This document shows, piece by piece, positions 3,888-59,348 of a stretch of 64,000 nucleotides of DNA. The notes under the pieces were generated by a model. The model saw nothing but the letters and a program-made list of their open reading frames with translations, searched no databases and had not been told where the DNA came from. The position numbers and the translations under genes were made by a program. Location of the stretch: the NCBI GenBank assembly GCA_027490755.1, contig JAIXXL010000005.1:1-64000 (forward strand), in the 5' to 3' direction. Source of the stretch: Betaproteobacteria bacterium (GTDB lineage: Bacteria; Pseudomonadota; Gammaproteobacteria; Burkholderiales; UBA3065). How positions within the stretch are numbered: the stretch's first letter is position 1; every line of letters starts with the position of its first letter.

Positions 3888-3962
3888 AAGCTCATGCGCG
3901 GGCACTCTTGGGGCGACGTGCCCCTTGGATCACGCGGAACCTCACTTCAGGAGAGCACGGAC

Positions 3963-5315: not shown

Positions 5316-5367
5316 GTTGCCCGCATCAGCCATCCCGGTCACTGGCCAAAGCCCCGGACCCGCCACC

Positions 5368-9565: not shown

Positions 9566-9610
9566 CCCGGCAACACGCTCGTCCGAACAACACGCCCCAG
9601 GAACACACCC

Positions 9611-21116: not shown

Positions 21117-21249
21117 GCGGGTTTCGGCCGGAAGCTGCGAAGGCTGACGCAGGCCATAGCCGTTTGTCCAGTCCAAGGCATCGTGATAGCGTTCGCCGAT
21201 GTTGCAAGCTCGGCAATCTCCGGGGCCCATCCCACGTAAGGTGACGCAC

Positions 21250-22971
21250 ATGGCTTTCAGCCTGACCGGCCGCACGTCCTCCGTGGAGGCTGAGGCGGCA
21301 AAATCCGAGACAGCGCCCGAGTACGCCCCCGGCCAGTTGATTGTCGGCCTCGACCCCTCAGTCGCCGATGCCCTAGAACTGCTGCTCGGCGCGATCGACG
21401 GGTCGATCCTCGCCAGTGACCTCGGTGGCAACGGTGTAGTGCTGATCAGCGTGCCTGTCGACACCGACATCCCGGCCACCGTCCGTAAAGCCGCCCAGCT
21501 GCCCTTCGTCACCTACGCCGAGCCCGATCACGTGGTGACGATCCAGTTGGAGGCACCGGTGCAGGAGACACTCGACCCGCCGATCCTGGTCGTTTGCCCA
21601 CCACCCGAGCCTTGTCTGCCCAAACCCTACCTGCTCGACACGCGCTTCGAGACGCTGCTCGCCGGTGACGGCGTGACCATCTCGGGCTACGTGGAACTCA
21701 CCGTGGGGCCCGGCTTCAGTTCCAGAAACGAGTACGACGCGGACTTTAATCTGCGCTCCAGCGAATACCGCGACAGCAGAGGCGCTCGCTCCATTACGGT
21801 GCGCGAGACCTTGGTCGAAGATGGCGTGGTGGTCGGCCACATCGATACCAGTTCGGGCAGCGGCGAGGGCTGCGCCTGGAAATCTCGCACGTGCTACGAC
21901 GCGGCCTTCAACCTGGTCGAGGCCACCTACGCTGACAATCAGGGCTACCAATCGACCACCAGTCGCAGTGAGATCCTCGACGAGTCAACTGGCGAGTTGA
22001 CCGGGTACGAGGTGACCAGTCGTGGCGGCGGCAACGGCTACACATACCACTCGGTCGAAACCTTCGACGCCAGTTACCGGTTGCTGTCGTCCGAATACGA
22101 AAGTGGCGACTACCGGTCGTCCTACCAGCTGGAACCGCAGTTTGACCCCGATACCGGTGAGCTGACTGGGTACGTAAGCACTTACACGTGGAGCGATGGC
22201 AGCGGCACCTACACCTTCAGCAACCAGTTCGATGCCAACTGGAACTACGTCTCTGGTGACAGCGACACCCCTGGGGTCGTTCTGGACGACGGCCCGACCA
22301 GCCTGCCCCTCCTCTTCCTCGACGCGCAGACAGTCGAGGCCGATGCCACGTCCAGAGCCGCGGCCATCGGGCCTGCGCCGATCGACAGTACCAGCGAGAC
22401 CGGCGCACGCTTGCAGGGCACGCAGAGCGACGATGTCTTCCTGATCGATGACGCGCGCGATCGCGTACGCGGCAACAAGGCAGGTGACGATACGGTCATG
22501 AGCGAGACGCTCTCGCTCGACCTGAGTCGCCGCAACCTGAACGGCATTGAGGATGCAGTCCTGATGGGCTGGAGCGACCTCGACCTGCGCGGCAACCGCG
22601 GCGACAACGAACTGCACGGCAACGCCGGCGACAACCGCATCGATGGCGGCGCTGGAGCAGACACGCTGTTCGGCGGTTTTGGCTCGGATGTGTTCGTCAT
22701 CCGCATCGGGCAAAAGGGCGCCGCGGATGTCGTGACCGACTTCACCAGTGGCGAAGACAGCATCGCGCTGCTCGGCAGCGCCTTCCGCCGCCTGTTCGAT
22801 GCCGACGGCGAACTGCGCGGTGGCGTCCTCGGCGACCGCCTGCTGTTCGACGCGAGCAGCGGCGAACTCAGCTTCGACCGGGACGGTGCAGCGGGTCGTG
22901 GGACGGCCAAGGTCATCGCCGTGCTGGTCGGCGTCGACGAGGTCACGGCCAGCGATTTCACGCTCGGCTGA
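21250..22971 (+). CDS. Secreted RTX protein with protease-propeptide-like N-terminus
   Basis: A 573-residue protein with three parts. Residues about 20-100 resemble the propeptide/inhibitor I9-type domain before subtilases (APGQLIVGLDPSVADALE, then LPFVTYAEPDHVV), yet no serine-protease domain follows. Residues about 125-340 hold several degenerate repeats with a pattern of Tyr-Asp, then SSEYRDSRG or SSEYESGDY, then TGELTGY. Residues about 385-573 are a C-terminal RTX region (GNRGDNELHGNAGDNRIDGG, GGAGADTLFGGFGSDVF) followed by the DFTSGEDSIAL segment common in serralysin C-termini, ending in ASDFTLG. It lacks a Sec signal and should leave by type I secretion. Start ATG 21250 has AAGGTGA six bases upstream. 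Confidence 0.8.
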   Translation: MAFSLTGRTSSVEAEAAKSETAPEYAPGQLIVGLDPSVADALELLLGAIDGSILASDLGGNGVVLISVPVDTDIPATVRKAAQLPFVTYAEPDHVVTIQLEAPVQETLDPPILVVCPPPEPCLPKPYLLDTRFETLLAGDGVTISGYVELTVGPGFSSRNEYDADFNLRSSEYRDSRGARSITVRETLVEDGVVVGHIDTSSGSGEGCAWKSRTCYDAAFNLVEATYADNQGYQSTTSRSEILDESTGELTGYEVTSRGGGNGYTYHSVETFDASYRLLSSEYESGDYRSSYQLEPQFDPDTGELTGYVSTYTWSDGSGTYTFSNQFDANWNYVSGDSDTPGVVLDDGPTSLPLLFLDAQTVEADATSRAAAIGPAPIDSTSETGARLQGTQSDDVFLIDDARDRVRGNKAGDDTVMSETLSLDLSRRNLNGIEDAVLMGWSDLDLRGNRGDNELHGNAGDNRIDGGAGADTLFGGFGSDVFVIRIGQKGAADVVTDFTSGEDSIALLGSAFRRLFDADGELRGGVLGDRLLFDASSGELSFDRDGAAGRGTAKVIAVLVGVDEVTASDFTLG

Positions 22972-34387: not shown

Positions 34388-34490
34388 TCGACTCGCATCG
34401 CCTGCCTGCGCTGGTCGGCTGGCGAGCGCCGCGCGACGTCTCTGTGCAGCCTGATAGACTCATCGCTGATTGCACGATAAGTCTTCATAC

Positions 34491-35546
34491 ATGTCTGCCG
34501 CAGCACGAAACGACCCGTCAATGGTGTTAGCGACCTTCCGGCTACTCAACACGCCAGCGGCCGCTGTGCCGCAAGAGGCCGCAGTGCTCCTCTGCGAGGG
34601 GCCGCCGCGGGCATGGTTCATCTTGGACCCTGGCATTGCAGGCGCATTGCTGCGTTCCGATCGGGTGATCCCAACCTCGGGACAGCGTTACTACGCAGCG
34701 GTGTCGGGCCTCGCCCGCAGCGACTTTCCGCTGCTGAGCGAGGCGTTCGAACGCACGCCCCTCTCTCTCAGCGGCAGCGCACACCGCGATGCGCGTTCGA
34801 GAATCACGCCCCTCTACCGGCGGGTGGAGGCCGGGATAGACCATTGGATCGACGCGTTCTGTGCCGCCTACCTTGAGGATCTGCGCACCCGTATTGCACC
34901 GGACCTCATGCAGGCGGCCTCGGACTTCAGCGACCGGGTCAGCCGCGCGATGGCGGCCAGAGAACTCGACATCGGCTGGCAGGAAATCCCGCCAGTCCCC
35001 AACGAGATCTTCATGCTTTTCCCCAGCGCCGCCCGCTTGCGACAAATCGAGGAGAAGTTCGCCGCGATCCATGACATGGTGACCACCTGCCTGCGAAGTC
35101 AGGGGCGGGATTCGGAGGACTTCTGGCCCATCTTTACGTTGATGATGATGAATCGTGACGCGATGCAAGGTACTCTCGCGCACATGTTTTGCCATCTGGC
35201 GCGTGGAACGGTTCTCGGGTCAGCATCGGAATGCGCGATCGCGGCGAGCAACGTCAGTCTGCTGCAATGCCGCGAGGTGGTCGAGGACTGCGAGATCGCT
35301 GGCCACTCCTGGTCATGCGGCGATCTTCTCCAGATTTCGCCCTATCTGCTGCACCAGCGCGCCCCGCCGCCAGCAGGAACCGACTTCACGTTCGGGGCCG
35401 GACCGCACGCCTGCCCGGGTCGCAAGCTGAGCCTGCGCATCCTGGATGCGCTCATCAGGGCGTTGCGCACCCAACCTCTGCCCGAAGGTTTTTTCATCCC
35501 GATCCCCCGACTTTTCCGACAGATCATCTTGACAGCCGAAACATGA
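34491..35546 (+). CDS. Divergent, shortened cytochrome P450
   Basis: A 351-residue P450-like protein, shorter than the usual 400. The haem-ligand loop is complete (FTFGAGPHACPGRKLSLRIL, Cys308). Other core marks are altered. In the I helix, where D/E-T-T is usual, it reads NRDAMQGTLAHM, with Ala-Met in place of the Thr pair. In the K helix, the ExxR position reads as ECAI, with no Arg. The stretch between sheet 1 and the haem loop (HQRAPPPAGTDFTFG) is about a dozen residues shorter than usual. It should bind haem, but ordinary oxygen activation is doubtful. It overlaps the acyl carrier protein gene by ATGA. Bacterial P450s acting on carrier-bound acyl groups are known (BioI-like, NikQ-like), which fits the neighbours. 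Confidence 0.82.
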   Translation: MSAAARNDPSMVLATFRLLNTPAAAVPQEAAVLLCEGPPRAWFILDPGIAGALLRSDRVIPTSGQRYYAAVSGLARSDFPLLSEAFERTPLSLSGSAHRDARSRITPLYRRVEAGIDHWIDAFCAAYLEDLRTRIAPDLMQAASDFSDRVSRAMAARELDIGWQEIPPVPNEIFMLFPSAARLRQIEEKFAAIHDMVTTCLRSQGRDSEDFWPIFTLMMMNRDAMQGTLAHMFCHLARGTVLGSASECAIAASNVSLLQCREVVEDCEIAGHSWSCGDLLQISPYLLHQRAPPPAGTDFTFGAGPHACPGRKLSLRILDALIRALRTQPLPEGFFIPIPRLFRQIILTAET

Positions 35547-35818
35547 CCCAAGCCAGCCAACCTCCGGAGTTGGACCGACTCCCCGAAATCATCGAGTTCT
35601 CGGTGCAGCACCTTGAACTCGACATCGAGCCGGCCAAGGCCGCCAACGAATCCCTCGCCGCACTGGGCATCGACTCGCTCGAACTCCTCTCACTCACGGG
35701 CGCGCTGGAGGAGACCTTCGGCGTCACCTTCGACCCTGATCGTCTTCAGGATGCTGCCAAGGCCAGCAAGCCCCTGACCCTTGCCGAGACGCTTTGCCTG
35801 ATGGCTTCGGCGTCATGA
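35543..35818 (+). CDS. Acyl carrier protein
   Basis: A 91-residue carrier protein with the phosphopantetheine site LGIDSLELLSL (Ser45), an acidic helix II region, and ETFGVTFDPDRLQD typical of ACP helix III. It is longer than E. coli AcpP (78) by extra N-terminal residues. The ATG overlaps the P450 stop and its own stop overlaps the next start (ATGA both times), so all three are translated as a unit. No ketosynthase, acyl-CoA or acyl-AMP ligase, or phosphopantetheinyl transferase is in the window, so the loading step is not encoded here. Confidence 0.9.
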   Translation: MTQASQPPELDRLPEIIEFSVQHLELDIEPAKAANESLAALGIDSLELLSLTGALEETFGVTFDPDRLQDAAKASKPLTLAETLCLMASAS

Positions 35819-36891
35819 CGACTGCCAGGCGTCCCGCCGCGGGCCATCACCTTTTCTGGAGTACTGGCGAGGGCAAGTTGCTGCACTATCGGGTTCGGGG
35901 ACGGAACGGGCAGGTCCCCGCCACCCGTGACATCTCCATCTGGAGCTTGCGAAAAAGGTTCCCGCTGTTCGTGCAGTGGCTCTCGCTCGCTCGCACGTTG
36001 CGCACGGGCACCATCCATCGCCGCACCCATAGCCTCGCGGTGGCGGCCCTTGCCGCGATCGGTGAGGACCGACCCCGCGAACCCGAGGTCAAGTTGCCCC
36101 TGGAGTCGCGCCGCTCGCTTTTCGGCATGCTCATGCTGGGCCCGCAGCGTGCTATCGCCCGCATGGCGGAGCGCCTGCAGACGGTCGGCAGCACACTCAC
36201 CCCCAACTACCGCAAGATGCTCTCGGCCCTCACTCCGGCGTTCGATGACGCGGCAGACCTGCCCTTCCTCACCTGCCGACCGAACATCTATCTCTGGCTC
36301 CCTCCCGGGAGCGAGAACGAGTCGCGGGTACTGGTCTGTTTCTGTACGAGCAGCAACTCGCTCAACGCGCCGTTGCCGGTCGCACACGCGGCGCTTGCCG
36401 CTCGTGGCGTACCCATCTGCTACGTGTTCAACCGCAAGGGGCGCTTCGCCCACAAGGGCCTCCCCGGAATGGATGCGGACCTGTCGGCGCGCGCCATCGG
36501 CCACTTGCTCGACCGACTCGGCCTGCCCGAGCGCTATGGCCTCGGTACCTCGCTGGGCGGCTACACCGCGTGCCGATACGCCGCCGGGCTGGGTTTGCGG
36601 AGGGTGCTCAACTTTTCCGGTTGGCCGGACAAGGGCAACGAGGCATATACCGACCTCGAGTGCATGAACAAGGCCCTCGGCACATTTCCACTGGACGGCA
36701 TACTCACGGTGCTCTCGAGCACCGATGCCAATGACCGTTCCATCGTTGAGTCCTACGACAAGGGTGGCTTTGTCACACAGCGCGTACTCCTCGACACACC
36801 GACGCATGGCTCGCTGCTGGGCGCGATCATCGAAGACCGTCTGGACGGCCTCCTCGGCTGGCTCCTTGAGGGCCGAGCCCTGGAAAACTGA
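35815..36891 (+). CDS. Alpha/beta-hydrolase-fold protein
   Basis: A 358-residue protein whose C-terminal half (about residues 160-350) is an alpha/beta hydrolase: VLVCFCTSSNSLNAPLPVAH as strand and oxyanion region, nucleophile elbow GLGTSLGGYTA with Ser246, and a late His in TPTHGSLLGAI. An acid in the TDANDRS loop near residue 305 could complete the triad. The N-terminal half (about 1-155) is basic and mostly helical and has no family I know. Because it overlaps the ACP gene, a thioesterase or acyltransferase acting on the carrier-bound group is the simplest reading. No signal peptide, so cytoplasmic. Confidence 0.75.
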   Translation: MTTARRPAAGHHLFWSTGEGKLLHYRVRGRNGQVPATRDISIWSLRKRFPLFVQWLSLARTLRTGTIHRRTHSLAVAALAAIGEDRPREPEVKLPLESRRSLFGMLMLGPQRAIARMAERLQTVGSTLTPNYRKMLSALTPAFDDAADLPFLTCRPNIYLWLPPGSENESRVLVCFCTSSNSLNAPLPVAHAALAARGVPICYVFNRKGRFAHKGLPGMDADLSARAIGHLLDRLGLPERYGLGTSLGGYTACRYAAGLGLRRVLNFSGWPDKGNEAYTDLECMNKALGTFPLDGILTVLSSTDANDRSIVESYDKGGFVTQRVLLDTPTHGSLLGAIIEDRLDGLLGWLLEGRALEN

Positions 36892-36937
36892 GCCCTGGCG
36901 AGGCGCCGCCCTTCGAAGACCCACCCCCACTGCCATC

Positions 36938-38215
36938 ATGCGCATCCTCTTCGTTCATCAGAACTTCCCGGGCCAGTTCAAGCACCTGGCGCCCGAGCTG
37001 GTCAAGCGCGGACACCACGTGGTGGCCACCAGCATGCGGCGCGACTCGCCAAAGATTTGGAACGGCTTGCAGGTCGTCCGCTATCAGGCGGCCCGCTCAT
37101 CGACCAAGGACATCCACCCCTGGGTCACCGACATCGAGACCAAGGTCATCCGCGGGGAAGGGTTCTTCCGCCTCGCGCTCAAGCTGCGCGAGCAGGGCTT
37201 CGAACCTGATCTGGTGATCGCCCACCCGGGCTGGGGCGAGACCCTCTTCGTCAAGGATGTATGGCCTCGCGCCAAGCTCGCCATCTACTGCGAGTTCTTC
37301 TACCGCAGCCACGGCGCGGATTCCAACTTCGACCCGGAGTTCCCCTTGACCGACCCGGGCGACTCGTGCCGCATCCGCCTCAAGAACGTCAACAACATCC
37401 TCCATTTCGACTTGGCCGATGCGGCCATCTCCCCCACGCACTGGCAGGCGAGCACCTTCCCGGAGCCCTTCCGCAGCAAGATCCGCGTCATCCATGACGG
37501 TGTCGACACCGCACACCTCAACCCCGACCCGGAAGCGCGCGTGACCCTGACGCGGGAGCCGGCCCCGGGCAGTGCGGCCGATGCCGCACGCAACGTGACG
37601 CTGTCGCGGCAGGATGAGGTGCTCACCTTCGTCAATCGCAACCTGGAGCCCTACCGCGGCTTCCACACCTTCATGCGGATGCTCCCCGATCTGCTGGCGG
37701 CCCGGCCCGGCCTGCAGGTTGTGGTGGTTGGGGGCGATGGCGTCAGTTACGGCTCGAGCCCCAAGGGTGGCGGCACCTGGAAGGCGGTCATGCTGCGCGA
37801 GATGGGGCACCGCATCAGCCCGGCCGACTGGGATCGTGTCCACTTCGCGGGCAAGGTGCCCTACCCGGACTTCGTCAGGTTGCTGCAGGTCAGCACCGTT
37901 CATCTCTACCTCACCTACCCCTTCGTGCTGAGTTGGTCCCTGATCGAGGCGATGTCCTGTGCCTGCGCGATCGTGGCCAGCGACACGCCGCCCCTGCTGG
38001 AGGCGATCGAGGATGACGTCACCGGCCGTTTGGTCGATTTCTTCGACACGAGCCGGATGCTCGGGGCGGTGATCGAGCTGCTGGACGACCCGGGCGCGCG
38101 GCGCCGACTGGGCGAGGAGGCGCGTAAGCGGGCGCTTTCCAGTTACGATCTGCGCACCCGGTGCCTCCCCGCCCAGGTCGAATGGGTGGAGGAACTCCTG
38201 AAGCCCGACCACTAA
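36938..38215 (+). CDS. GT4-type glycosyltransferase
   Basis: A 425-residue GT-B glycosyltransferase opening MRILFVHQNFPGQFKHLAPE, with the phosphate-binding FVNRNLEPYRGFHTFMRMLP in place of the more common GRL loop, GGDGVSYGSSPKGG, and the donor-site motif FVLSWSLIEAMSCACAIVAS. The family includes sugar transferases of polysaccharide and natural-product glycosylation. The ATG at 36938 begins exactly at the conserved N-terminus. It follows the hydrolase by 46 bases and the next glycosyltransferase by 8 bases downstream, so it is probably part of the same transcript. Confidence 0.88.
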   Translation: MRILFVHQNFPGQFKHLAPELVKRGHHVVATSMRRDSPKIWNGLQVVRYQAARSSTKDIHPWVTDIETKVIRGEGFFRLALKLREQGFEPDLVIAHPGWGETLFVKDVWPRAKLAIYCEFFYRSHGADSNFDPEFPLTDPGDSCRIRLKNVNNILHFDLADAAISPTHWQASTFPEPFRSKIRVIHDGVDTAHLNPDPEARVTLTREPAPGSAADAARNVTLSRQDEVLTFVNRNLEPYRGFHTFMRMLPDLLAARPGLQVVVVGGDGVSYGSSPKGGGTWKAVMLREMGHRISPADWDRVHFAGKVPYPDFVRLLQVSTVHLYLTYPFVLSWSLIEAMSCACAIVASDTPPLLEAIEDDVTGRLVDFFDTSRMLGAVIELLDDPGARRRLGEEARKRALSSYDLRTRCLPAQVEWVEELLKPDH

Positions 38216-38223
38216 GGCCTGCG

Positions 38224-40035
38224 ATGCCAAAGAGAACCCAAGCTGTAAGCCAACCCGCGCCGCCGGCGCCCGAGGCCAGCCGGCGGGTGAGCATCACGAT
38301 CGATGGCAAGCGTCTGGCAGAGGCCTACTCAGGCGGCAACGTCGATGAACTGGTCAAGTCGATCGTTCAGTGGTGTGCACCGCTGGCGCGGATGAACCTG
38401 CTCAAACCACTGAATGGGCAGCAGGTACAAGCGCTCGACGACAGCCTGTCGGCGGTTGCCTTCTATCTCACGCGGACGGGGCTCGACTTCAAACGGTCGC
38501 ACGTGCTCAAGCTCGTGCAGATGCATTCGGTGCTTGCAAACCTCTCCGCCCTGTCATCGTTTGGCGGGACTAGCCAATGGCTGCGCCAATCAATCATCGG
38601 CGGTCGGCCGAGCCTGGCGACCTTCTATTTCGCCAACTCGCGCTGCGAGGAGACCATCCCGCGCAGTGCCCTGTTCGACATCGACCCCGAGATCGCCTCG
38701 GAGTGGTACGGCCTCTACTTCACAGCGGTGCGCGGCTTCCACAATACGGTGGCACGCGAGAACCTGCGCACGCAACTGCGCTTCTGGGACGAACGCATGC
38801 GCTGCCGTTGGGCGGTCTCCAACGGCTATATGCAGTCGACCTACATCGACCCTGCCGCCGACCGCATCTACAAGCAGCGATTCAACCAGCTGGTGCAGCG
38901 CCAGTACGCCGGCTTTGCCATCCGCAACCAGCCGCGCGGCAATCGTATCGCGGTGGTCACCGGGCGCTGGTCCAAGGTGAACCCGACCTACAAGAACCGC
39001 TACCCGCTGTTCAAGGCGTTGGCGGAGCGCTACAGCCTCAGCCTCGTCCACGTCGGGCCGCCGCGCAAGGACCTCGAGCACGACATCTTCGAGGACACGC
39101 ACCACGTGCAGATCAAAGGAGAGCGGTTCGAGACCGATTTCCTCTTCGACAACGACTACGACATGGTCTTCTACCCGGACATCGGGATGAACGTCGAGTC
39201 GCGGTTCCTCAGCAATCTGCGCCTGGCGCCGATCCAGCTCACAACCAACAGCCACCCGGTGAGCACTTTCGGGTCGCAGATCGACTATTTCGTGACTGGC
39301 GCAGAGTCCGAGGAGTCGCCGGCGCTGGCGAGCCAGCACTATTCCGAACGGCTGCTGCTCATCCCGGGCATCGGCACGCACCCGGTGACACCCTCTTACG
39401 TCCCGCGATCACCCAAGAAGCCAGCCGATCCGCTTCTCATCGGCTGCGGCTGGGGCTCGCTCAAGTTCAACGACGACATGCTGCGCCTGCTGTGCAGGAT
39501 CCGCGACCGCGCATCGCGGCGGGTGGTGTTCCGCTTCCTGCCGACGCTCAAGGTGGACGGCGGCGGGTTCCTCGTCTTCCTCAAGGATCTCGAGGCGCAC
39601 CTGGGCAAGGACGCGGTGCAGCTGTTCCCAAGCCAGCCCTACGAACGGTACATGGACCGCCTGGCCGAGTGCACGCTGGCGCTCGACCCTTTCCCGTTCG
39701 GGGGCAACACCACCATCGTCGATTGCATGGCGCTCCGTCTGCCGATCGTCACACGCTGCGGGTGGCAGTTCTACAACCTCGCCGGCCCGGTGATGCAGAC
39801 GCGCTTCGGCGTGCATGAGCTCTCAGCGCGGACCGACGACGAGTATGTCGACATGGCGCTGCGCCTGATCGACGATGAGCCATTCCGCCAGCGCATGGTG
39901 GATGCCATCCAGAACGACCACATGGCCGACCGGCTCGCCACGCTGAGCAGTGCGGAACGCTTCGTCGAGGCGATGACGCACCTCATGGAGAAGCGCCCCG
40001 ACCCACGCGAGCGGGCGCCGCTGGTCTTTACCTGA
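38224..40035 (+). CDS. GT41-like (HMW1C/SPINDLY type) glycosyltransferase
   Basis: A 603-residue soluble enzyme. The N-terminal half (about residues 30-240) is helical. The C-terminal half is a GT-B fold: LLIGCGWGSLKFNDDMLRLL, RVVFRFLPTLKVDGGG, and the donor loop LALDPFPFGGNTTIVDCMAL followed by LPIVTRCGWQFYNLAGP. The PFPFGGNTTIVD loop is the hallmark of bacterial HMW1C-like protein N-glycosyltransferases and of SPINDLY/OGT. Such enzymes glycosylate proteins in the cytoplasm with UDP-sugars. No TPR repeats are obvious. It faces the giant RTX gene across a shared terminator and is last in a row starting with the P450. The acceptor is unknown; protein or small molecule are both possible. Confidence 0.78.
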   Translation: MPKRTQAVSQPAPPAPEASRRVSITIDGKRLAEAYSGGNVDELVKSIVQWCAPLARMNLLKPLNGQQVQALDDSLSAVAFYLTRTGLDFKRSHVLKLVQMHSVLANLSALSSFGGTSQWLRQSIIGGRPSLATFYFANSRCEETIPRSALFDIDPEIASEWYGLYFTAVRGFHNTVARENLRTQLRFWDERMRCRWAVSNGYMQSTYIDPAADRIYKQRFNQLVQRQYAGFAIRNQPRGNRIAVVTGRWSKVNPTYKNRYPLFKALAERYSLSLVHVGPPRKDLEHDIFEDTHHVQIKGERFETDFLFDNDYDMVFYPDIGMNVESRFLSNLRLAPIQLTTNSHPVSTFGSQIDYFVTGAESEESPALASQHYSERLLLIPGIGTHPVTPSYVPRSPKKPADPLLIGCGWGSLKFNDDMLRLLCRIRDRASRRVVFRFLPTLKVDGGGFLVFLKDLEAHLGKDAVQLFPSQPYERYMDRLAECTLALDPFPFGGNTTIVDCMALRLPIVTRCGWQFYNLAGPVMQTRFGVHELSARTDDEYVDMALRLIDDEPFRQRMVDAIQNDHMADRLATLSSAERFVEAMTHLMEKRPDPRERAPLVFT

Positions 40036-40139
40036 CACGCCAATGAGCTATGCCAGCGACACCCGGCTCACGCTGAGGTGTCTGGAAAGGTAATGCGCGC
40101 GCGTGCCCCTTGCCGGCGCGCATCGGCTCCAGTCGAGAT

Positions 40140-40171
40140 AACAAAAGCCCGGCCGAAGCCGGGCTTTTGTT
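40140..40171. terminator. Bidirectional terminator between glycosyltransferase and giant RTX gene
   Basis: AACAAAAGCCCGGC (40140-40153) and GCCGGGCTTTTGTT (40158-40171) make a perfect 14-bp stem with a CGAA tetraloop. The A-rich left and T-rich right arms give a usable U tract in both directions, suiting the two convergent genes that end at 40035 and 40234. Confidence 0.9.
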
Positions 40172-40233
40172 GCCACCAGTTCTCGGAGCGGATGGGCTGA
40201 AGCCTTACTGCACGCCCAACATCCGTTCAGAGA

Positions 40234-43200
40234 TCATGCGTCAGCCGGAGGAGAAGTTGGCTCCAGAGGCGTGAAGCCCACCAGTATGACCATCGACTCA
40301 TTGGTCAGCAGGTTCTGGTTGTCGACACTGCCATCGGTCCTGAAGAAGAGCAGGTCATCACCCTCGCTGTCGAACTCGAATCGGTTGGTGACCTCATCGT
40401 AGTTGCCGACCGCGTAGTACGCGCTGTTGTCCTCAAGGTTCCGATAGTTCCAGGGCCCCGACAACGAATCCGGCCTGACGAGACTGTAGAACAACACGTC
40501 GCCATCTGCGTCGAGGACATCGTTGAAGCCATCGAAATCGTTCACGCCATCGTTGTTGTTATCCAAGTCCCCGAAGACGAAGTCGACACCGTTGAACCCA
40601 CCCAAGTCGAGGCTATCGACGTTACCCCCTCCAGCGATGGAGTCGTTCGCGACCTGGAAGTCGTAGATCAGATCGACCTGGTTGCGCCCATCGATGTCGT
40701 CCTGGAACTCCAAGAAGTCGCCCTCGAACACCAGTCGCTCATCCCTCAAGCTACCGGAGAGAGGTGCGACACCGTCATCGGCTCCTTGGGCAAAGTAGTC
40801 GCTGCCACCTGCCGGCGTGTTGCCGAAGTTGAAGTCCAGTGCCGGGTCGTTGTGGTCCCCGAAGCCGGAGTCAAGGTCAAAGTTGCCGCCATAGATGACC
40901 TGTGCGCCATCACCAGCTTCGATGAAGTCGTTGCCAAGGCCACCAACAACGATCTGGGCGTCTTCGGTCACCTCGATGAAGTCATCCCCGTTGCCACCCA
41001 ACACAAGAACGGCGTCGCTGTGGATGTGGATGTCGTCGCCGAGGTCGCTGCCCTGGACCGTCTCGAAGCCGATCACATAGGCATCACCGAGACTGATACC
41101 GCCCGCCATCGAGTCCTCGTTACCGATACCCGCCAGGATGAGCAGGTCATCGCCGAGTCCACCATCGAGCGTGGCGATAAAGTCACCGCCGCCGATCGCG
41201 AAGTCATTGCCAGCGATGTAGAGCAGGTCGTCGCCGCCGCCAAGATCCAGGTATCGGAGGTCCGAGGTCACAGGATCGTCATTGCCGCCATCGTTGATGA
41301 TGACGAGATCGTAGGCCCCGCTACCGAAGACCGACTCGACTGAGCTGCCGGCACCCCCGTCAGAGAAGAACGGGGAATCGACATCCTCACCCTCGTTCAG
41401 CACCAGTCGTCCACCCGCAAGCAGGTTGATGACGTCGTCGCCGTTGCCGCCGAACACCGTGGCATTGGCCTCGTCGTGGAAGTTGAAGGTCGCCCCGGCG
41501 AAGCCATCGCGAATGATGACAGTGTCATCGAGGTTGCCGTCAGCCCTGATGTCGACCGTCACCTCCTCGGTATTGACGAGGAACAACCCTTCGACGCCAT
41601 GGAAAGATAGCTCGGCATTCTCGTGGTTCGAGAACACGACCGCGACATCCTCTCCAGAGCCACCGACCAACGTGACGTTGTCGAACTCGGAAGTAAACGG
41701 TGCGTCAACATTCCCGAACTCCGCCGAAAGATCGGCGAAACCAAGAGTGAAACTGTCATCGCCGCCAGCCCCATCGACAGTCACGTTCTCGATGCTGCCG
41801 TAAGTCTCGAGCGAGATGTCGTTGTCCTCGCCGTTGCTGCGCAACAGGCGGAGGCGGTCGGTTCCGAACAGTTCTCCGTCAGGCCCGCCGTCAACCAGCG
41901 AGATATCGCCTTGGCCACCGTCGGCAAGGATGAGCTGCTCGAACCCGTCGAACTGGCTGAGATCGATGTTATCGAAGACGTCGGGGTCACCCGCGCTCGA
42001 GTGGTTGCCGGTCAGGATCAGGGTGTCGAGCCCGTCACCACCATGGATGAAGAATCCATCCCCAGCGGCGTCCTCACCGTCGATACGGAACAGCTCGACC
42101 GTGTCATCGCCACCACCGGCATCGACGGATACACGCGCCAGACCATTTGCGCTGATGCTGATCGAATCATCGCCATCGCCGGCATCGACAGTGACATCTT
42201 CGATGTTGCCGCCCAACCACGAGTAGCCCGCGATCAGGTCATTCGCATCGTTGAAACCATCGGCGAAGGTCACCGTGGTGAGGACCAGCGAATCATCGCC
42301 GTCACCCAGGTTGAACTCCGATCCCCCATCGATGTTGCCGCTCGCCGCGACCACCAACGCATCGTCGCCATCGCCGGTCGTGACGTCGACGTTGCGGACG
42401 TTGCCGTCGTCGTTGTTGCCGAGGTCGGCGTAGAGGTTCACGGAACCGCCACCGTCACCGGTCTGGACAGTCGTGTTGACGATGCTTTCGCCGGAGACGA
42501 GCGTGATCTCGTCAAAGCCATCCCCGGCCTCCACTACCACGGCATCGATGTTGCCACCATCGAAGGCGTAGGACTCGACGTCGACCACGTGGCCGTCGTA
42601 TTCGAAACCGGTCACCGGAGCCACATCGGTGCTGGTGAACAGCGAGAGGCCGTTGTTGCCGTCGCCGAGGTCGAAGGTCGAGTTGGCGATCCTGTCTGCC
42701 GCGCCACCAGTGACAACGTCGTCGCCGCTGCCGAGGATGACTGTCACGTCCTCGATATCGCCGTGGATGTTGTTGAACCCATCAAAAAGCTCGTTGTCGT
42801 TCACGTCGGCGAAGAGTTCAACGGTGTTGTCGCCGTCACCGACGTCGATCAGAACGCCTCCGATGGTACCGCCAGCAACGATGCGAACATTGTCGCGGCC
42901 ATCACCGCCAGTCACGGTCGTCTGGTTGATATCAAACGGAACAAAGCCTCGTAGTTCGTACGCCTCGGGATCGAAGAACACTGAGTTGTCGAGTGTGTCG
43001 TCCTCGTAGCCGCGGATGGTGTCGAGCTCCGTGCTGGTGAGGAGCCGGATGAAGTTGTCTCCATCCCCAAGATCGAACCGTGCGTCGCCGTTTTGGATGC
43101 TGCCACTGAATACCGCGAGCACGGTGTCACTACCACTACCCGCGTTCACTGTGAGGTCACCATCTTTGCCGCCGAGATCAGAGAAGAGCGACACGAGGTT

Positions 43201-46200
43201 ATCGCCATTGCCGACATCGATAAGGATCGACTCGTCGAGGCCGTCACCAGAAATCAGCGAAACGACATCGTCGCCAGAGCCACTCCTGATGGTGACATCG
43301 TAGATATCCCCTTCTCTGGCCAGCGCGTCACCCTCGACCAAGCCGAAGGCGTTGGTGTTCACAAGCGTGACGACGTTGTCGCCATCGCCAAGATCGAGCT
43401 CGACATTTGAGATGTCGCCATTTCCGGCGAGCAGCACAGTGTCGGCGTCACTGCCGCCGATCACAACCACACTCTCGATGTCCCCACCGTCGACAGCGCT
43501 GAGGCCCGCATACAGCGAGGCGCTGTTCGTGCCATCGCCAAGATCGAGCTCGACATTTGTGATGTCGCCGTTTCCGGCAAGCAGCACGGTGTCGGCGCCA
43601 CTGCCGCCGATCACAACCACACTCTCGATGTTCCCGCCGTCGACAGCACTGAAGCCCGCATACAGCGAGGCGCTGTTAGTGCCATCGCCAAGGTCGATGA
43701 GGATCGCGCCGCTGTCGAGGTCGTTGTCATCAACAAGTGTGACCGAGTCGTCGCCGCTACCAGCGGTGACGGTGACCCGCTCGATACCGCCGAAGCTGTC
43801 ACCCAACTCGAGATCTTCCACCTCCTCCAGAGCAGTACCGTCGAGGAACGAGGCGACGTCGGTGCTAGTGACCAGCAAGGCGGCATTGTCGCCTTCGCCC
43901 AGGTCGACCACCAAGTCGCTGATGTTGCCCGCAGCCGCGAGAACAACGACATCGCTGCCATCACCCCCGAACAGGGTCGTGACGACTTCTTCGCTGCTGT
44001 CGTCGATGCTGGGGGTGAAGGCGCCATCGATGTTGCCGTCGGCGAACAGCAGGATCGTGTCGTCACCCTCGCCGCCGTCGATCAGCGTGCCGAACGAGAA
44101 CTCGCCCTCGCCATTGCTGGCGTTGCCGTCGGTGTCGACGACGTACTCACGGATGTCCTCGGCCGAAACGAGCGTGATGAGATCGTCTCCCGACCCACCC
44201 TCGACGCTAAGGCCCTTGAGGTCACCGCCGTCGATCGCATATTCGCCTTCGATGTTGCCGAGCAGGCTGCTGTTGGCGATCAGGATGCTGTCATCGCCGT
44301 CGCCAAGATTGAAGGTCGAATCCCAGATCTCACCACTCGCGGCGACGGAGACAGAATCGTCGCCCTCGCCACCGAACAGCTCGACCGAAGAGATGACACC
44401 CTCGTCTTCGCCGTCCAAATCCGCATAGAGACGGACGAGATCGTTGCCGGCACCGGCGTCGATGGAGACACCCGGCTCGATGTCGAGCAGGGCCCCAAGC
44501 ACCGGGCTGCCAGACGAATCACCACCGAAGTTATTTGGCGATGTGCCGATGTCTTCACCAGACAGCAGCGTGATCTCATCGTCGCCGTCGCCTGCTTCCA
44601 CCGTGACGGCGTTGATGTTGCCACCGTCGATGAACTCTGCACCGCCAACCGATCCGAGATCGGTGCTGGTGGTCAGCGTGAGGCTGTCATCGCCACTGCC
44701 AAGGTCGGCCGTGATGAGTTCGATATCCTCGCCCGACGCCATCAGCACGTCGTCATCGTCGTCGCCCGTATCAACCTCGACGGCAATGATGCCGCCGCCG
44801 GACTGGAGACCCGCGAAGATCTCGACTACGTCGTCACCACTGCCAGTGAAGATACCGCCGTCAAGGATCTCGGCGGCGTTTCCAGCGAATGTCTGGGCAG
44901 CCGTGTCCGCGGCCTCTGTGGCCGCCTCCGCTGCTTCGAAGGGATCTGCGCCAGAATCCAAAGCCTGCTCAAAGGCCGATTCATAGACCTTTTGGCGGAA
45001 GTCTTCGAGGTCGGGCACGAGCGTGTCGAAACGGGTTAGGAACGCGACGTTGTTGGCAGCCAGCGAGACCTGGTCGTCGCCGTCGCCGGTGGTCACATTG
45101 ACCAGGCCGATGCCGCTAGCGAGGCCGAAGCCGTCGTTCAGGAACCCTCCGGGCAGGTCTTCGCCAACGGCGTCCACGTTGCCGGCGTAGAGGCGGACGA
45201 CGTCATCGCCCGAGCCGAGGTCGAAGCTGCTGAGGCCGATGGCATCTGGTGCCACCGCGATCACCGTGTCGTCACCGCCCTCTTGATCAACCACCTCGAC
45301 GCCAAGGATGACGTCCGGGTTCGGAGTGCGGCGTCTGATCGTGTCCTCGACGCCTGCGTAGAGCTCGATCAGGTCATTGCCTGCACCGCCGTCGATCGAC
45401 AGCGGGGCGAGGTCAAACTCGAAGTCCTCGCCGTCGACGACAGCCGCCGCCGCTGCGAGCAGCGACACTGCGTCGAGGGACTGGGTAGGATCGAAGGGGA
45501 CTTCCCCTGTCTGGATGTCCAACAGCCCGAGAATGTCTTCGCCAGCGACCAGACGGATCTGGTCGTCGCCTGCACCGCCTGCAATGGTCAGCCCGACGAT
45601 GTCATCGCCGCTCAGGAAGCCGTCTTCGCCATCCGGGCCGAGGCTCTCGATGGGACCAAAGCCGGTGCTGGTAAGGACGTCGAGGACGTCATCACCACTG
45701 CCAAGGTCGATGCTCGAAGCACGAATATCGCCGCCCGCACCGATCGAGACGACGTCGTCGCCGGCGCCGCCATTGACGGTGGAATCAGACAAGTCGACAT
45801 CTTGGGGGGGCCAGACGAAGGACTCGTAGGGGCCGGCGTAGAGAGAGATCTCGTCGTCGCCAGCACCACCCTCAATGGAGATACCGCTGACATCTTCCCC
45901 AGAGAGCAAGACGATACGGTCATCACCAGCGCCGCCGTCGACAGTCACGTCGTCGATCTCACCCGAATCGAAGTCTTCGCCACGGATGTCACCCACCAGC
46001 GTGGTGTCGGCAATGACCTGCAGGAGGTCGTCGCCCGCGCCGAGGAAGAATTCCGAATCGTGGACCTCGTTGGCAGACACGGCGAGCACGTTGTCGTCAC
46101 CGGTGCCGGCGGTCACGGTCGTGTAGTGGACGTGACCCTCTTCGTCTTCCTCGAGTTCGGCATACATGGCGATGGTGTTGTCGCCGTTGCCGGCGTTGAT

Positions 46201-49200
46201 GAACACCTCTATGTCATCCGCCGCATCGATGAGGATGCGGTCGTTGCCGCTACCAGCGGTGATCGAGACATCCTCGATATCGTCGCCCGTCGCGTCGTCA
46301 CCGATGGAATCGTCTTCGGTAAGGTCGTTGACGTTGAAGCCGTCGAAGTCGAAATCTTCGGGCGCTGCGTATTCCGTGGTGGTGAACAGGCCGAGCAGAT
46401 TGTCGCCATCGCCCAGATTGAAGTGCGTACCGCCGCCGCTACCACCAATCTCCGAGGCGGCAGCGGCAACGACCGTATCGTCACCAGAACCAGCATTGAC
46501 GGTGGCGCGGTTGATGTCGGCATCCTCATCGTCCGGGTCCGACAGGCCGGCATACAAGCGAACGGTGTTGTCGCCGTCGCCAACGTCGATGAGAGCTTCA
46601 TCGCCCTCGTCCTCGCTGATGCCTTCATCGGCAATGATCGTGACGTTGTCGTTGCCGCTGCCAGCCGTGATGGTGACGTTCTTTACCTCATCGCCAATGC
46701 CACCGAAGTCGATGTCGTCGGCAAGGACGTCGCCGTCCGGGAACAGGCTCACATCGCGGTCGCCCGCGGTATCCAGGAAGGTGCTGGTCGCCAGGACGAT
46801 GACGTTGTCACCATCGCCCAGCGAGAAGGTGCTGTCTTCGACGTCATCTGTCGCGGCGGCAACGACCGTGTCATCGCCGCTGCCGGCGATCACCGTGACA
46901 TTGTCGACCTCGTCACCACTGGAAGATCCGTCCCCTACGTCAGGATCGGAGTAGAGGCGCACGAGATTGTCGCCGTCGCCGACGTCGATGAACACACCGC
47001 CCGTCGCGCCGATCTCACCACCGGCCACGATAAGGACAGTGTCATTGCCGTCGCCCGCAGTCACGGACACGGCGTCGATATCGTTACCATTGAAGCTTTG
47101 CCCCTCAACCGCACCAAACTCGGTGCTGGTGATCAGGCTGACATGGTTGTCGCCATCGCTCAGGTCGATCGACGCGAGGAAGATGCTGTCGCTCGCAGCG
47201 TATTCGACAGTGTCGTCGCCGTCGCCGGCGACCACAGCTGTAGCGAAGATCGCCCCGTTCCCGGCCAGATCTCCGCCGAACAGCGGCAAGCCAGAGGAGA
47301 ACCCATCGCCATTGTCGTCGAGGTTCGAGTGGATCCGGACGATGTTGTCGCCCTCGCCGAGGTCGATGCCGCCATCAAGTGCATCACCGAAAGCCGTCGA
47401 CACGCGGGAGTCGAACTCCGTCAAGAGCAAATTGAGCAACTCAACTGCGCGGGGGTCGAAGTCAGGATCTTCCAAAGACGCGTCGAGGGCAGGCTCGAGC
47501 GATTCGTCAACGAGGTTCGAGAAGAATTCTTCGCCATCGGGCATGGCGAAAGCGACACCTTCCGCGAGGATCGAGACCTCATCGTCCCCGTCACCGGCGT
47601 CGATTTTCAGGCCAAGGACCGGCCCGCCGCCACTACCACCAGCCAGAACGTCGCCCAGGTCATCACTGGCGATGATGTCAATGACATCGTCGCCGCCGCC
47701 CAGATCAAACGTATTGAACAAGAGGGCATCACCGGCCTTTGCCTCGATGTAGTCGTTGCCATCACCGGCGTAAACAGAGACGCCGGCGGATTCGAGGGCA
47801 GGGAAAGACTCATCCAACAATGCATCGAGCGACACCAAGGAGCTGTCGACCGCTGTGGCGATGTCTTCGGCGCTCGGAGGGCTCGATTCGGGATCGTCAG
47901 CGCTCTCGTCCGCCAGACTGGTCAGGAGGCTGCGCAGGCCCTCGCGGTCGACCAGATCGAGGTCGACCTCGCTCGGGCGAGCGCCGCCGATGATGTTACT
48001 GGCATCGAGGCGGAGCTCATCGTCGCCGCGGCCGAGGTCGAAGGTGCTCCTCAGGATGTTGTCGCTGGCGTCGACCAGAACGATATCCTCACCATCCCCA
48101 AGGTCGAACTCGCCCTCGACGATGTTGGCCTCGACGAGAACGGAATCATCGCCATTGCCCGCGACGATGTCGAGCGAAACGACACCTGCGTCAACAGCAC
48201 CGACGATGCTGTCGACGTTTCCGAATCGGGTGTCAAGAGCGGTATCGGCGTTGAAGCCGAAACCGCCACTGTCGCCGACGATCAGGACGTCATCACCCTC
48301 GCCTAGGTCGAACGTGCCGCTGAGGACATCCGAGCCCTCGACCACCACCGAATCGTCGTTGCCACCGACATTCGCAAACAGTGTTACCGATGCGGAAGCG
48401 CCACGGACCACGACGAGGTCCTCGTCGTCGCCGGTCTCGACGAACATGAGCGGGATGAGGTCTTCGCCGTCGCTGTCGTTGTCGCCGTCGATGACGATGG
48501 TGTTGTTACCGTCGCCGGCGCTGACGTAAACCACCCCCTGGTAAGTGCTCGGGAGATCCCCCTCCTCAACGAAATTGTCAAGGACGAGCCCATCAGGCAC
48601 AGCCAAAAGATTGGCGGCAACCTCGACCCGGTCGTCGCCGTTGCCGAAGACCAACGCCTCGATGCTACTCACATTGCCTGCAGCATCGTCGAGAAGCTCA
48701 TAGCCACCGGCTGCGCCATCGATATCAAAGACCAAGGTGTCAAAGCCGCTGCCACCAGCGACGGTCTCTTGATCCGAAAAGTCGCCGTCGGCTGCGCCGC
48801 CCGAACCACTGAAGCTGCCAGCGACGAAGAAGACGTCGTCGCCATCGCCGCCGAGCAGGGAGTCATTGCCTGCGCCGCCCACGATGGTCTCGTCGAGACC
48901 GTTACCGACGATCGTGTCGGTGCCTGCGCCGCCGAACACGGAGACGATGCCCGAACCAGCCAGATTGACGTGATCGGAGAGCTCGCTCAGGCGGAGCCCC
49001 TCGACTTCGCTGATGTTCCGACCGTCGCCAGGCCGGTATGCGCTCGAGGGGGAACCGACGGCCCCGGTGAAGACGATGAAATCATCACCCGTACCGCCAG
49101 AGATGGTGTCGTTCAGGCCAAGAGAGCCCGCAGCCGAACCGGCTCCGCCGAAGACGAAGGAATCGTTACCGCCACCGCCCCGCAGGACATCGGCGCCGCT

Positions 49201-50850
49201 GTCGGCCCCACCGCCAGAGACGGTGTCGTTCGCGAAGAAGGTGTCGTCGCCATCACCGCCGAGCAGCGAGTCGTTGCCTGCGCCGCCGCGCAGAACATCG
49301 TCGCCGATGCCGCCAAGGATGGTGTCGTCGCCCCACCCGCCGGAGATGGAGTCGTCACCCGCCTCACCGTCGAGCAGCTGGTTGACCGAACCCGGCACGG
49401 TATCGAACTGCCCCGAACCACCGCTGATGTCGTCATTACCACCGCCGCCTCGCACCGCACCGATGGTGCCGCGGCTGCCAAGGCTGATCGAGTCGTCATC
49501 GCCCGAGCCCAACACCGACTCGACACCGGTGACGATAACCGCCCGGTTCTCGACTGTCGCACCAAGGTCCAGAGAAGCACCCGCGGTCAGGACGATGGCG
49601 TCGCTGCCGACACCGCCGTCGATCGTATCGATACCATCTTCCGAGGAACCGATAACGAAGCGGTCGTCTCCCGCATCGCCGAAGAGTTGGTCACTACCCC
49701 GTTCTCCAAAGAGACTGTCGTTGCCGTCGCCGCCAGAAAGGCGGTCGTTGTCCTCACCACCGAGAAGCCTGTCGTCGCCAGTGCCACCGATGAGGGTGTC
49801 ATTACCGTCATCGCCTAGCAGGCTGTCGCTGTCCTCGTCACCGAGCAGACTGTCGTTGCCATCGCCGCCGATCAGCGTGTCGTTGCTGTTGTAGCCTTGG
49901 ATGGTGTCATTGCCCAATCCACCAAGGACCGTGTCGCCAAGCACGACGGTGCCGATCAGAAAATCGTTGCCCGCGCCGCCATCGAGGTAATTGATGCCCG
50001 TCGACGGACCTTGCCCGTACAGCGAGAACCGATCGTTTCCGCTGGCGAGTTCGATGCGCTGGACATTGCTTCGCCCCGAGCTGTCCCTGTCGATCCTCGA
50101 GACAAAGGCCTCGATGGTGACGCCGGCATTGGGGCTTGAAGCCACTGATGCGTTGTTGGAGAGAAAGCGCTCGCCGCCAGGCTCACCCGGCGCTGGTCGC
50201 CTAGTGCCCACAACCATGTTCTGGATGGCGCCCGGGCCATCTTCGAAACGGAGGGTGTTGATGCCGCTGCCGCCCGAGATCGAATCGGTCGTCGGGGAAA
50301 AGTCCGCGGTCCCGGCGCGGAAGATGAAAACGTCGTTTCCATCGCCGCCGACAAGCGTGTCCCGGCCGTTCCCCGACAACCCGCCGCTAAAGCTATCGGT
50401 ACCGATGCTCCGCAGCGTGTCGTTGCCCGCCCCGCCGATCAGAAGGTCGTCGCCGCCATCGCCGACCAGCGAATCGTTGCCATTGCCTGCCGTGACGATG
50501 TCGTTGCCAAGCCCGCCACGCAAGGTGTTGTTGCCGACGAGATCGGTGAGCCGGTCATTGCCGGAGCCGCCGTCCATCAGGTCGTTGCCGGAAGCACCGG
50601 AGATGGTGTCGTTGCCCGCGTCGCCGTAAAGAGAATCGTGACCAGTGCCGCCATCGATGCTGTCATTACCCTCGAAACCCCGAAGCAGGTCGTTGCCGTC
50701 GCGCCCAAGCAAGGTGTCGTTGCGAGAGGTCCCTAGCAAAGTGTCATCGCCGAGCGTGCCCTGCCTTAATGAGAGGGCGTTAACCGCACTGCTGGCGGGC
50801 GTGGCCGAAGCGACTGGAGTCGGGATCCTTCCGGGTTTTTTGACGGCCAT
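40234..50850 (-). CDS. Giant RTX beta-roll repeat protein (3538 residues), surface or S-layer candidate
   Basis: The protein is 3538 residues, very acidic, almost without Lys, and I found no Cys. After a basic, Pro-rich N-terminus of about 25 residues (MAVKKPGRIPTPVASATP) come classic GGxGxD nonapeptides (about residues 32-165 and 285-560: GNDTLLGRDGNDLLRG and the like). Then comes a long region of looser repeats of about 70-80 residues pairing GSGDDxV with FxLGDGDN and an L.TST segment, to about residue 2800. The last 700 residues have fewer repeats and end VILVGFTPLEPTSPPADA. Helical, non-RTX inserts occur near residues 960-985, 1107-1150 and 1937-1990. No Sec signal, enzyme, or LapG-type retention domain was recognised. 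Export by the type I system at 4-11 kb is likely. GGAG lies six bases before ATG 50850. Adhesin or S-layer protein are the main options. Confidence 0.88.
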   Translation of the reverse strand: MAVKKPGRIPTPVASATPASSAVNALSLRQGTLGDDTLLGTSRNDTLLGRDGNDLLRGFEGNDSIDGGTGHDSLYGDAGNDTISGASGNDLMDGGSGNDRLTDLVGNNTLRGGLGNDIVTAGNGNDSLVGDGGDDLLIGGAGNDTLRSIGTDSFSGGLSGNGRDTLVGGDGNDVFIFRAGTADFSPTTDSISGGSGINTLRFEDGPGAIQNMVVGTRRPAPGEPGGERFLSNNASVASSPNAGVTIEAFVSRIDRDSSGRSNVQRIELASGNDRFSLYGQGPSTGINYLDGGAGNDFLIGTVVLGDTVLGGLGNDTIQGYNSNDTLIGGDGNDSLLGDEDSDSLLGDDGNDTLIGGTGDDRLLGGEDNDRLSGGDGNDSLFGERGSDQLFGDAGDDRFVIGSSEDGIDTIDGGVGSDAIVLTAGASLDLGATVENRAVIVTGVESVLGSGDDDSISLGSRGTIGAVRGGGGNDDISGGSGQFDTVPGSVNQLLDGEAGDDSISGGWGDDTILGGIGDDVLRGGAGNDSLLGGDGDDTFFANDTVSGGGADSGADVLRGGGGNDSFVFGGAGSAAGSLGLNDTISGGTGDDFIVFTGAVGSPSSAYRPGDGRNISEVEGLRLSELSDHVNLAGSGIVSVFGGAGTDTIVGNGLDETIVGGAGNDSLLGGDGDDVFFVAGSFSGSGGAADGDFSDQETVAGGSGFDTLVFDIDGAAGGYELLDDAAGNVSSIEALVFGNGDDRVEVAANLLAVPDGLVLDNFVEEGDLPSTYQGVVYVSAGDGNNTIVIDGDNDSDGEDLIPLMFVETGDDEDLVVVRGASASVTLFANVGGNDDSVVVEGSDVLSGTFDLGEGDDVLIVGDSGGFGFNADTALDTRFGNVDSIVGAVDAGVVSLDIVAGNGDDSVLVEANIVEGEFDLGDGEDIVLVDASDNILRSTFDLGRGDDELRLDASNIIGGARPSEVDLDLVDREGLRSLLTSLADESADDPESSPPSAEDIATAVDSSLVSLDALLDESFPALESAGVSVYAGDGNDYIEAKAGDALLFNTFDLGGGDDVIDIIASDDLGDVLAGGSGGGPVLGLKIDAGDGDDEVSILAEGVAFAMPDGEEFFSNLVDESLEPALDASLEDPDFDPRAVELLNLLLTEFDSRVSTAFGDALDGGIDLGEGDNIVRIHSNLDDNGDGFSSGLPLFGGDLAGNGAIFATAVVAGDGDDTVEYAASDSIFLASIDLSDGDNHVSLITSTEFGAVEGQSFNGNDIDAVSVTAGDGNDTVLIVAGGEIGATGGVFIDVGDGDNLVRLYSDPDVGDGSSSGDEVDNVTVIAGSGDDTVVAAATDDVEDSTFSLGDGDNVIVLATSTFLDTAGDRDVSLFPDGDVLADDIDFGGIGDEVKNVTITAGSGNDNVTIIADEGISEDEGDEALIDVGDGDNTVRLYAGLSDPDDEDADINRATVNAGSGDDTVVAAAASEIGGSGGGTHFNLGDGDNLLGLFTTTEYAAPEDFDFDGFNVNDLTEDDSIGDDATGDDIEDVSITAGSGNDRILIDAADDIEVFINAGNGDNTIAMYAELEEDEEGHVHYTTVTAGTGDDNVLAVSANEVHDSEFFLGAGDDLLQVIADTTLVGDIRGEDFDSGEIDDVTVDGGAGDDRIVLLSGEDVSGISIEGGAGDDEISLYAGPYESFVWPPQDVDLSDSTVNGGAGDDVVSIGAGGDIRASSIDLGSGDDVLDVLTSTGFGPIESLGPDGEDGFLSGDDIVGLTIAGGAGDDQIRLVAGEDILGLLDIQTGEVPFDPTQSLDAVSLLAAAAAVVDGEDFEFDLAPLSIDGGAGNDLIELYAGVEDTIRRRTPNPDVILGVEVVDQEGGDDTVIAVAPDAIGLSSFDLGSGDDVVRLYAGNVDAVGEDLPGGFLNDGFGLASGIGLVNVTTGDGDDQVSLAANNVAFLTRFDTLVPDLEDFRQKVYESAFEQALDSGADPFEAAEAATEAADTAAQTFAGNAAEILDGGIFTGSGDDVVEIFAGLQSGGGIIAVEVDTGDDDDDVLMASGEDIELITADLGSGDDSLTLTTSTDLGSVGGAEFIDGGNINAVTVEAGDGDDEITLLSGEDIGTSPNNFGGDSSGSPVLGALLDIEPGVSIDAGAGNDLVRLYADLDGEDEGVISSVELFGGEGDDSVSVAASGEIWDSTFNLGDGDDSILIANSSLLGNIEGEYAIDGGDLKGLSVEGGSGDDLITLVSAEDIREYVVDTDGNASNGEGEFSFGTLIDGGEGDDTILLFADGNIDGAFTPSIDDSSEEVVTTLFGGDGSDVVVLAAAGNISDLVVDLGEGDNAALLVTSTDVASFLDGTALEEVEDLELGDSFGGIERVTVTAGSGDDSVTLVDDNDLDSGAILIDLGDGTNSASLYAGFSAVDGGNIESVVVIGGSGADTVLLAGNGDITNVELDLGDGTNSASLYAGLSAVDGGDIESVVVIGGSDADTVLLAGNGDISNVELDLGDGDNVVTLVNTNAFGLVEGDALAREGDIYDVTIRSGSGDDVVSLISGDGLDESILIDVGNGDNLVSLFSDLGGKDGDLTVNAGSGSDTVLAVFSGSIQNGDARFDLGDGDNFIRLLTSTELDTIRGYEDDTLDNSVFFDPEAYELRGFVPFDINQTTVTGGDGRDNVRIVAGGTIGGVLIDVGDGDNTVELFADVNDNELFDGFNNIHGDIEDVTVILGSGDDVVTGGAADRIANSTFDLGDGNNGLSLFTSTDVAPVTGFEYDGHVVDVESYAFDGGNIDAVVVEAGDGFDEITLVSGESIVNTTVQTGDGGGSVNLYADLGNNDDGNVRNVDVTTGDGDDALVVAASGNIDGGSEFNLGDGDDSLVLTTVTFADGFNDANDLIAGYSWLGGNIEDVTVDAGDGDDSISISANGLARVSVDAGGGDDTVELFRIDGEDAAGDGFFIHGGDGLDTLILTGNHSSAGDPDVFDNIDLSQFDGFEQLILADGGQGDISLVDGGPDGELFGTDRLRLLRSNGEDNDISLETYGSIENVTVDGAGGDDSFTLGFADLSAEFGNVDAPFTSEFDNVTLVGGSGEDVAVVFSNHENAELSFHGVEGLFLVNTEEVTVDIRADGNLDDTVIIRDGFAGATFNFHDEANATVFGGNGDDVINLLAGGRLVLNEGEDVDSPFFSDGGAGSSVESVFGSGAYDLVIINDGGNDDPVTSDLRYLDLGGGDDLLYIAGNDFAIGGGDFIATLDGGLGDDLLILAGIGNEDSMAGGISLGDAYVIGFETVQGSDLGDDIHIHSDAVLVLGGNGDDFIEVTEDAQIVVGGLGNDFIEAGDGAQVIYGGNFDLDSGFGDHNDPALDFNFGNTPAGGSDYFAQGADDGVAPLSGSLRDERLVFEGDFLEFQDDIDGRNQVDLIYDFQVANDSIAGGGNVDSLDLGGFNGVDFVFGDLDNNNDGVNDFDGFNDVLDADGDVLFYSLVRPDSLSGPWNYRNLEDNSAYYAVGNYDEVTNRFEFDSEGDDLLFFRTDGSVDNQNLLTNESMVILVGFTPLEPTSPPADA
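43381..43680 (-). repeat. Tandem 150-bp duplication inside the giant RTX gene
   Basis: Bases 43381-43530 and 43531-43680 are tandem copies with about 10 differences in 150 by direct comparison. They encode two 50-residue units of the type ELDLGDGTNSASLYAG, then SAVDGGDIESVVVIGGS, ADTVLLAGNGDI. Other repeats in the gene are much more diverged, so this duplication is recent. Confidence 0.9.
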
Positions 50851-59329: not shown

Positions 59330-59348
59330 TGTAACGGGCACTGAGCAG

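Follow-up and report, generated by a model that had tools for sequence, protein, structure and literature searches.

Cytochrome P450s are usually recognized by an ExxR motif together with a Cys loop, and one of them, P450 BioI (CYP107H1), is a full-length, canonical enzyme of about 395 residues that acts on a fatty acyl chain bound to an acyl carrier protein (ACP). The BioI gene lies within a bio operon, and the enzyme works with the AcpP of its host. RhlA, PhaG and BioH are proteins of the alpha/beta-hydrolase fold that also act on ACP substrates, and HMW1C-type GT41 glycosyltransferases are encoded beside a giant surface protein, which in their case is a two-partner-secretion adhesin. RhlA and PhaG are reported to divert acyl groups of fatty acid synthesis into rhamnolipid and polyhydroxyalkanoate (PMC7054101, PMC3762805). 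P450s of the CYP157 family have an incomplete ExxR motif and keep the haem Cys (PMC3599690); they are reported to be linked to conservons, not to ACPs.

The locus described here lies in a 64,000-nt stretch of DNA (the window) from a metagenome-assembled genome (MAG; 2.06 Mb, 79% complete). Its P450-like protein resembles BioI as a P450 that would work with acyl-ACP, and BioI structures match its predicted model, but it is about 45 residues shorter, has no ExxR motif and is paired with a private ACP. As in CYP157, ExxR is incomplete and the haem Cys is kept. A hydrolase-fold partner for acyl-ACP, as in RhlA, PhaG and BioH, is proposed here by analogy, although no significant sequence similarity of the window protein to a named family was found. 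A GT41 gene again stands beside a gene for a giant surface protein, which is in this case a putative RTX/type I secretion (T1SS) cargo, whereas HMW1C systems have no counterpart of the gene trio. Because P450s that act on carrier-bound acyl groups and P450s without ExxR are both known, the trio is not categorically new; we regard it as real and unusual, and the mechanism proposed below as plausible.

Gene organization

An earlier note on this sequence had described three genes, joined by two ATGA overlaps, for a P450-like haem protein, an ACP with an intact DSL serine and an alpha/beta-hydrolase with a GTSLGG elbow, with two glycosyltransferase genes downstream and no ketosynthase, ligase or adenylation domain nearby, and all of these features were recovered. 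The three genes lie on the forward strand. The P450-like ORF (351 residues) occupies positions 34491-35546, with 34470 as the other possible start, and its 3' end, ACATGACC, shares an ATGA at 35543-35546 with the start of the ACP gene (35543-35818; 91 residues). The 3' end of the latter, TCATGACG, holds the second ATGA (35815-35818), on which the gene for the hydrolase-like protein begins (35815-36891; 358 residues). Since these ORFs form an uninterrupted run with GC3 values of 0.75-0.89, they are not chance ORFs. A GT4 glycosyltransferase gene (36938-38215, forward strand; PF12000, E = 1e-65, and PF00534) begins 46 nt 3' of the hydrolase gene and is followed, after about 8 nt, by the gene for an HMW1C-like GT41 glycosyltransferase (38224-40035, forward strand), the longest ORF of which runs from a GTG at 38161 and has an in-frame ATG as codon 22 at 38224. 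Given these short gaps, the five genes probably form one transcript; a scan for promoters and terminators gave no signal above that of shuffled sequences. Domain scans of roughly 30 window proteins recognized none of the ketosynthase, adenylation or ligase type.

A shortened P450-like protein without ExxR

The P450-like protein keeps the haem-thiolate loop (FxxGxxxCxG) as FGAGPHACPG at residues 301-310, with Cys308 as the haem Cys, although its score against PF00067 (16.5 bits) is under the gathering cut-off of 22.8 and it falls below every curated P450 cut-off tested in Pfam and NCBIfam. Alignment with 23 other P450s, found through the haem motif of the window protein, shows that the Cys loop, a His-x-x-x-Arg-like site in the C helix and the conserved Arg that follows the K helix are kept. 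The K-helix ExxR site, however, is aligned with CAIA, and the I-helix (A/G)GxD/ET site reads MNRDA, in which the Asp is kept and the Thr is replaced by Ala. Loss of the J-helix region shortens the segment from the I to the K helix, and the meander lacks some 10 residues, so that 40 residues separate the conserved Arg from the Phe of the haem loop compared with 49-61 in all 23 comparators. Judged by sequence, this set of losses in a 351-residue P450 appears to match no named family; P450s from Streptomyces and Kitasatospora (L084, L090, L092) also lack the ExxR Arg, but have 414-486 residues and a normal meander (49 residues). An AlphaFold model computed from a supplied alignment of P450s (pLDDT 77) predicts an overall P450 fold, and every Foldseek match listed is a P450, the best having an E value of 5e-9 with TM-scores of only 0.52-0.63. 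Complexes of BioI with acyl-ACP are among the top 50 matches, which is not specific because about 1400 P450 chains match at an E value of 0.001.

The carrier protein and the hydrolase-like protein

The 91-residue protein is clearly an ACP (PF00550, E = 3e-9; 37.3 bits against a cut-off of 20.8) with the DSL serine in GIDSLELL, and it is distinct from the separate housekeeping-type AcpP of the same genome (C41:91600, E = 0.15). The MAG holds a single gene for an AcpS-type phosphopantetheinyl transferase (PPTase). The ACP is acidic (pI 4.1) and the hydrolase-like protein basic (pI 9.7). In the latter, GTSLGG and THGS motifs are present, with Ser246 and His331 as candidate residues, though its match to PF00561 (E = 0.07; 13.2 bits) is under the Pfam cut-off of 25.8. 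Sequence comparisons found no significant similarity of this protein to any named family, and its structure model, with a pLDDT of 35, is too uncertain to be used.

Recurrence of the P450-ACP pair

Searches for homologues of the P450 or the hydrolase did not find the full trio in samples of the class (274), order (200 and 325) and phylum (398 and 329), nor among the listed matches from plasmids, viral contigs and pattern scans of genome contigs. These searches were samples and motif scans, not exhaustive; in the pattern scans, scrambled versions of the query were added to the query alignments and served only to fix the search motif. The scan with the hydrolase pattern returned nothing, and weak hydrolase matches elsewhere were mostly chance frames. 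That with the P450 pattern returned at least 29 P450s, and none of those listed stands with an ACP. When an ACP profile was run over every ORF of all retrieved loci, an ACP beside a P450 was found only in the window and in genome G864, so that ACP adjacency is uncommon among P450s.

G864 belongs to the same order but to another family. Its P450-like protein of 345 residues is co-linear over 294 residues with the 351 of the window protein (21% identity, pairwise E = 5e-6), and a P450 from Kitasatospora reaches a comparable full-length score. The distance from Arg to haem-loop Phe, counted on the sequence, is 38 residues compared with 40 in the window P450; the ExxR site reads KLSR, with the Arg kept and no canonical ExxR, and this protein also falls under the Pfam and NCBIfam cut-offs. 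Its gene overlaps by 8 nt that of an 86-residue ACP (32 bits; DIDSLGKLEM), after which, in place of the hydrolase gene, comes a gene for a 316-residue protein (L127:7295-8245) in which no known family was recognized and which is a candidate partner enzyme there. A likeness of this protein to LpxL-type acyltransferases was noted by eye only, and we do not claim it. The earlier note had proposed a search for the same trio in other genomes, with its non-conservation as grounds to refute the reading; in the samples searched, the full trio fails on this count and the P450-ACP core passes once. The core thus occurs again in G864 with another third gene, which makes that gene exchangeable; from these sequences, our reading is of a P450-ACP core with a changing third gene, in two instances. 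Common descent of the two pairs is likely but not proved, because the P450 tree leaves the window and G864 proteins, both on long branches, unjoined (a joint clade has an AU p value of 0.45 and is neither shown nor rejected).

Other short or plasmid-borne P450s were also encountered. Two short Burkholderiales P450s beside ArsR-type regulators (L111, L102) were rejected as orthologues. Of two P450s on Streptomyces plasmids, H2 is ordinary (410 residues, no annotated ACP nearby) and H1 lies in a stretch without annotation. Short P450-like proteins of Nocardioides (L095, L098, L099, L105; 368-418 residues) have no adjoining ACP, and their I helix reads AAGxQVP in place of AGxDT.

Genomic setting

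The trio was found in one of the five genomes of the genus. In congener G407 the segment at 34388-51079 is missing between the same flanks, the P-type ATPase and rlmL genes being direct neighbors, whereas 16.7 kb, from the P450 gene to an RTX gene, separates them in the window; in G323, recJ and rlmL are direct neighbors. The segment is variable and was probably acquired. In congener G367, which has no trio, the opposite side of rlmL holds a different GT41 gene together with a sugar gene; this stretch ends at the same homoserine-dehydrogenase and aminotransferase genes as the locus of the window, which extends to about 72 kb on the contig. The site is a variable surface-glycan site. Across the genus, the glycan genes at the recJ/P-type ATPase-rlmL and rlmL-homoserine dehydrogenase sites differ by species (the window compared with L059, L060 and L061). 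After rlmL, the window itself holds manC, gmd, an SDR gene, a glycosyltransferase gene and genes for an FkbM methyltransferase and an FkbM-sulfotransferase fusion (59322-61043) between 52386 and 61043.

The GT41 protein matches solved HMW1C-type N-glucosyltransferases (NGTs; 8.7e-28) and scores 107 bits against the NCBIfam NGT equivalog, for which the cut-off is 1000, and we thus describe it as HMW1C-like and not as a demonstrated NGT. Convergent with it is the gene for an RTX repeat protein of 3538 residues (40234-50850, reverse strand; PF00353, E = 3e-31), which has 38 N-x-S/T sequons compared with 25.1 +/- 4.7 in shuffled sequences, a mild excess. It is a possible target of the GT4 and GT41 enzymes, and could plausibly be exported by the type I secretion set at 3873-10981 on the forward strand (OEP, two ABC ATPases and HlyD). 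A second T1SS cargo is likely to be the 590-residue protein encoded upstream of the trio at 21199-22971, in which a prodomain of the fervidolysin type is accompanied by an RTX repeat.

Proposed mechanism and alternatives

We propose that a private acyl-ACP is oxidized by the small P450 and that the hydrolase-fold enzyme then releases the product or transfers it, a reading to which we give a probability of about 0.5. The two-gene core would act on an acyl (or aminoacyl) group bound to the ACP through a thioester, and the gene overlap would lead to production of P450 and ACP in a fixed ratio. Once primed by a PPTase, the ACP could receive its acyl group in exchange with fatty acid synthesis, from acyl-CoA through a PPTase, or through transacylase action of the hydrolase-fold enzyme, of the kind known for PhaG and RhlA. 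The P450 would then dock the holo-ACP and oxidize the chain, as BioI does with acyl-ACP, and the hydrolase-fold protein would free or transfer the product, as RhlA, PhaG and BioH do with ACP substrates; this product may feed the surface glycan or glycosylated-adhesin locus of this genome. We infer every step after priming, as well as the ACP carrying the P450 substrate, catalysis by the P450 and the role of the hydrolase. More tentatively still, and with some doubt on our part, the cassette might be one not described before, a minimal ExxR-less P450 family that is obligately paired with its own ACP, has an exchangeable third enzyme to set the fate of the oxidized acyl group and is inserted at different loci, in this genome within a surface-glycoprotein island.

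Judged from its sequence, the P450 may be catalytically dead because ExxR and the I-helix Thr are absent, in which case it would dock to the ACP and the hydrolase or regulate them, and the hydrolase-fold enzyme would do the chemistry alone. The joint loss of these motifs, the J-helix region and meander residues, together with the failure to reach any curated cut-off, points in this direction. Retention of the Cys loop, the C-helix site and the downstream Arg argues the other way, however, and loss of ExxR is not by itself proof of inactivity, since CYP157 P450s also lack it (PMC3599690); on balance, we think an inactive protein unlikely. Degeneration of the P450, the lack of a recognized loading enzyme nearby and the finding of the trio in one of five genomes of the genus might also indicate a decayed, non-functional remnant of a larger NRPS/PKS-type cluster. 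Such an origin is quite improbable given three intact, overlapping ORFs in which the DSL Ser, the GTSLGG elbow and the haem Cys are all preserved, and given the overlapping P450 and ACP genes in G864.

The earlier note had suggested acyl tailoring for transfer to a protein or glycan; in such a module, an oxidized group would be placed on the sugar chains made by the neighboring enzymes or on the RTX protein. The first part of this idea, that the P450 and the hydrolase act on an acyl group attached to a carrier, fits the genes, and the P450-ACP pair occurs again in G864; a connection with the glycan or the RTX protein is local to this site, where closely spaced GT4 and GT41 genes, the giant RTX protein, T1SS genes and nearby sugar-nucleotide, sulfotransferase and FkbM genes speak for it. 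This second part is weakened, however, because no glycosyltransferase or RTX gene was recognized among the genes examined around the G864 pair. In addition, G367 has a GT41 gene at rlmL but no trio, and no acyltransferase was recognized. Acylation of lysines in the RTX protein in the manner of HlyC appears unlikely from its composition (0.2% Lys) and because no HlyC family match was found among the window proteins scanned, as the note had also remarked. Overall, acylation of the glycan or glycoprotein strikes us as somewhat doubtful. A route in which the P450 cuts a long-chain acyl-ACP and so yields a short diacid for making biotin, or something related to it, would account for a trio that resembles BioI, ACP and BioH in kind, and for the BioI-ACP structures that match the model. 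We consider it highly improbable, as other P450s match the model equally well and no biotin gene was recognized among the window proteins scanned.

Returning to oxidation of a private acyl-ACP, the gene set hints at a small, little-known acyl-modifying cassette, the P450-carrier pairing of which is found in one distant bacterium too. A private ACP without a loading domain would make it a stand-alone acyl-oxidation cassette that is easily testable, and if its product feeds surface-protein glycans, acyl chemistry would be added to a GT41-type system. Moreover, an enzyme of 350 residues that is active despite lacking ExxR, the I-helix Thr and some of the meander would change the definition of a minimal P450, and such P450s would escape current annotation, as both copies fail the Pfam and NCBIfam cut-offs. 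Elsewhere in the same genome lies a gene for a canonical P450 (G000:C45:7284-8477, L117; PF00067, E = 5e-68).
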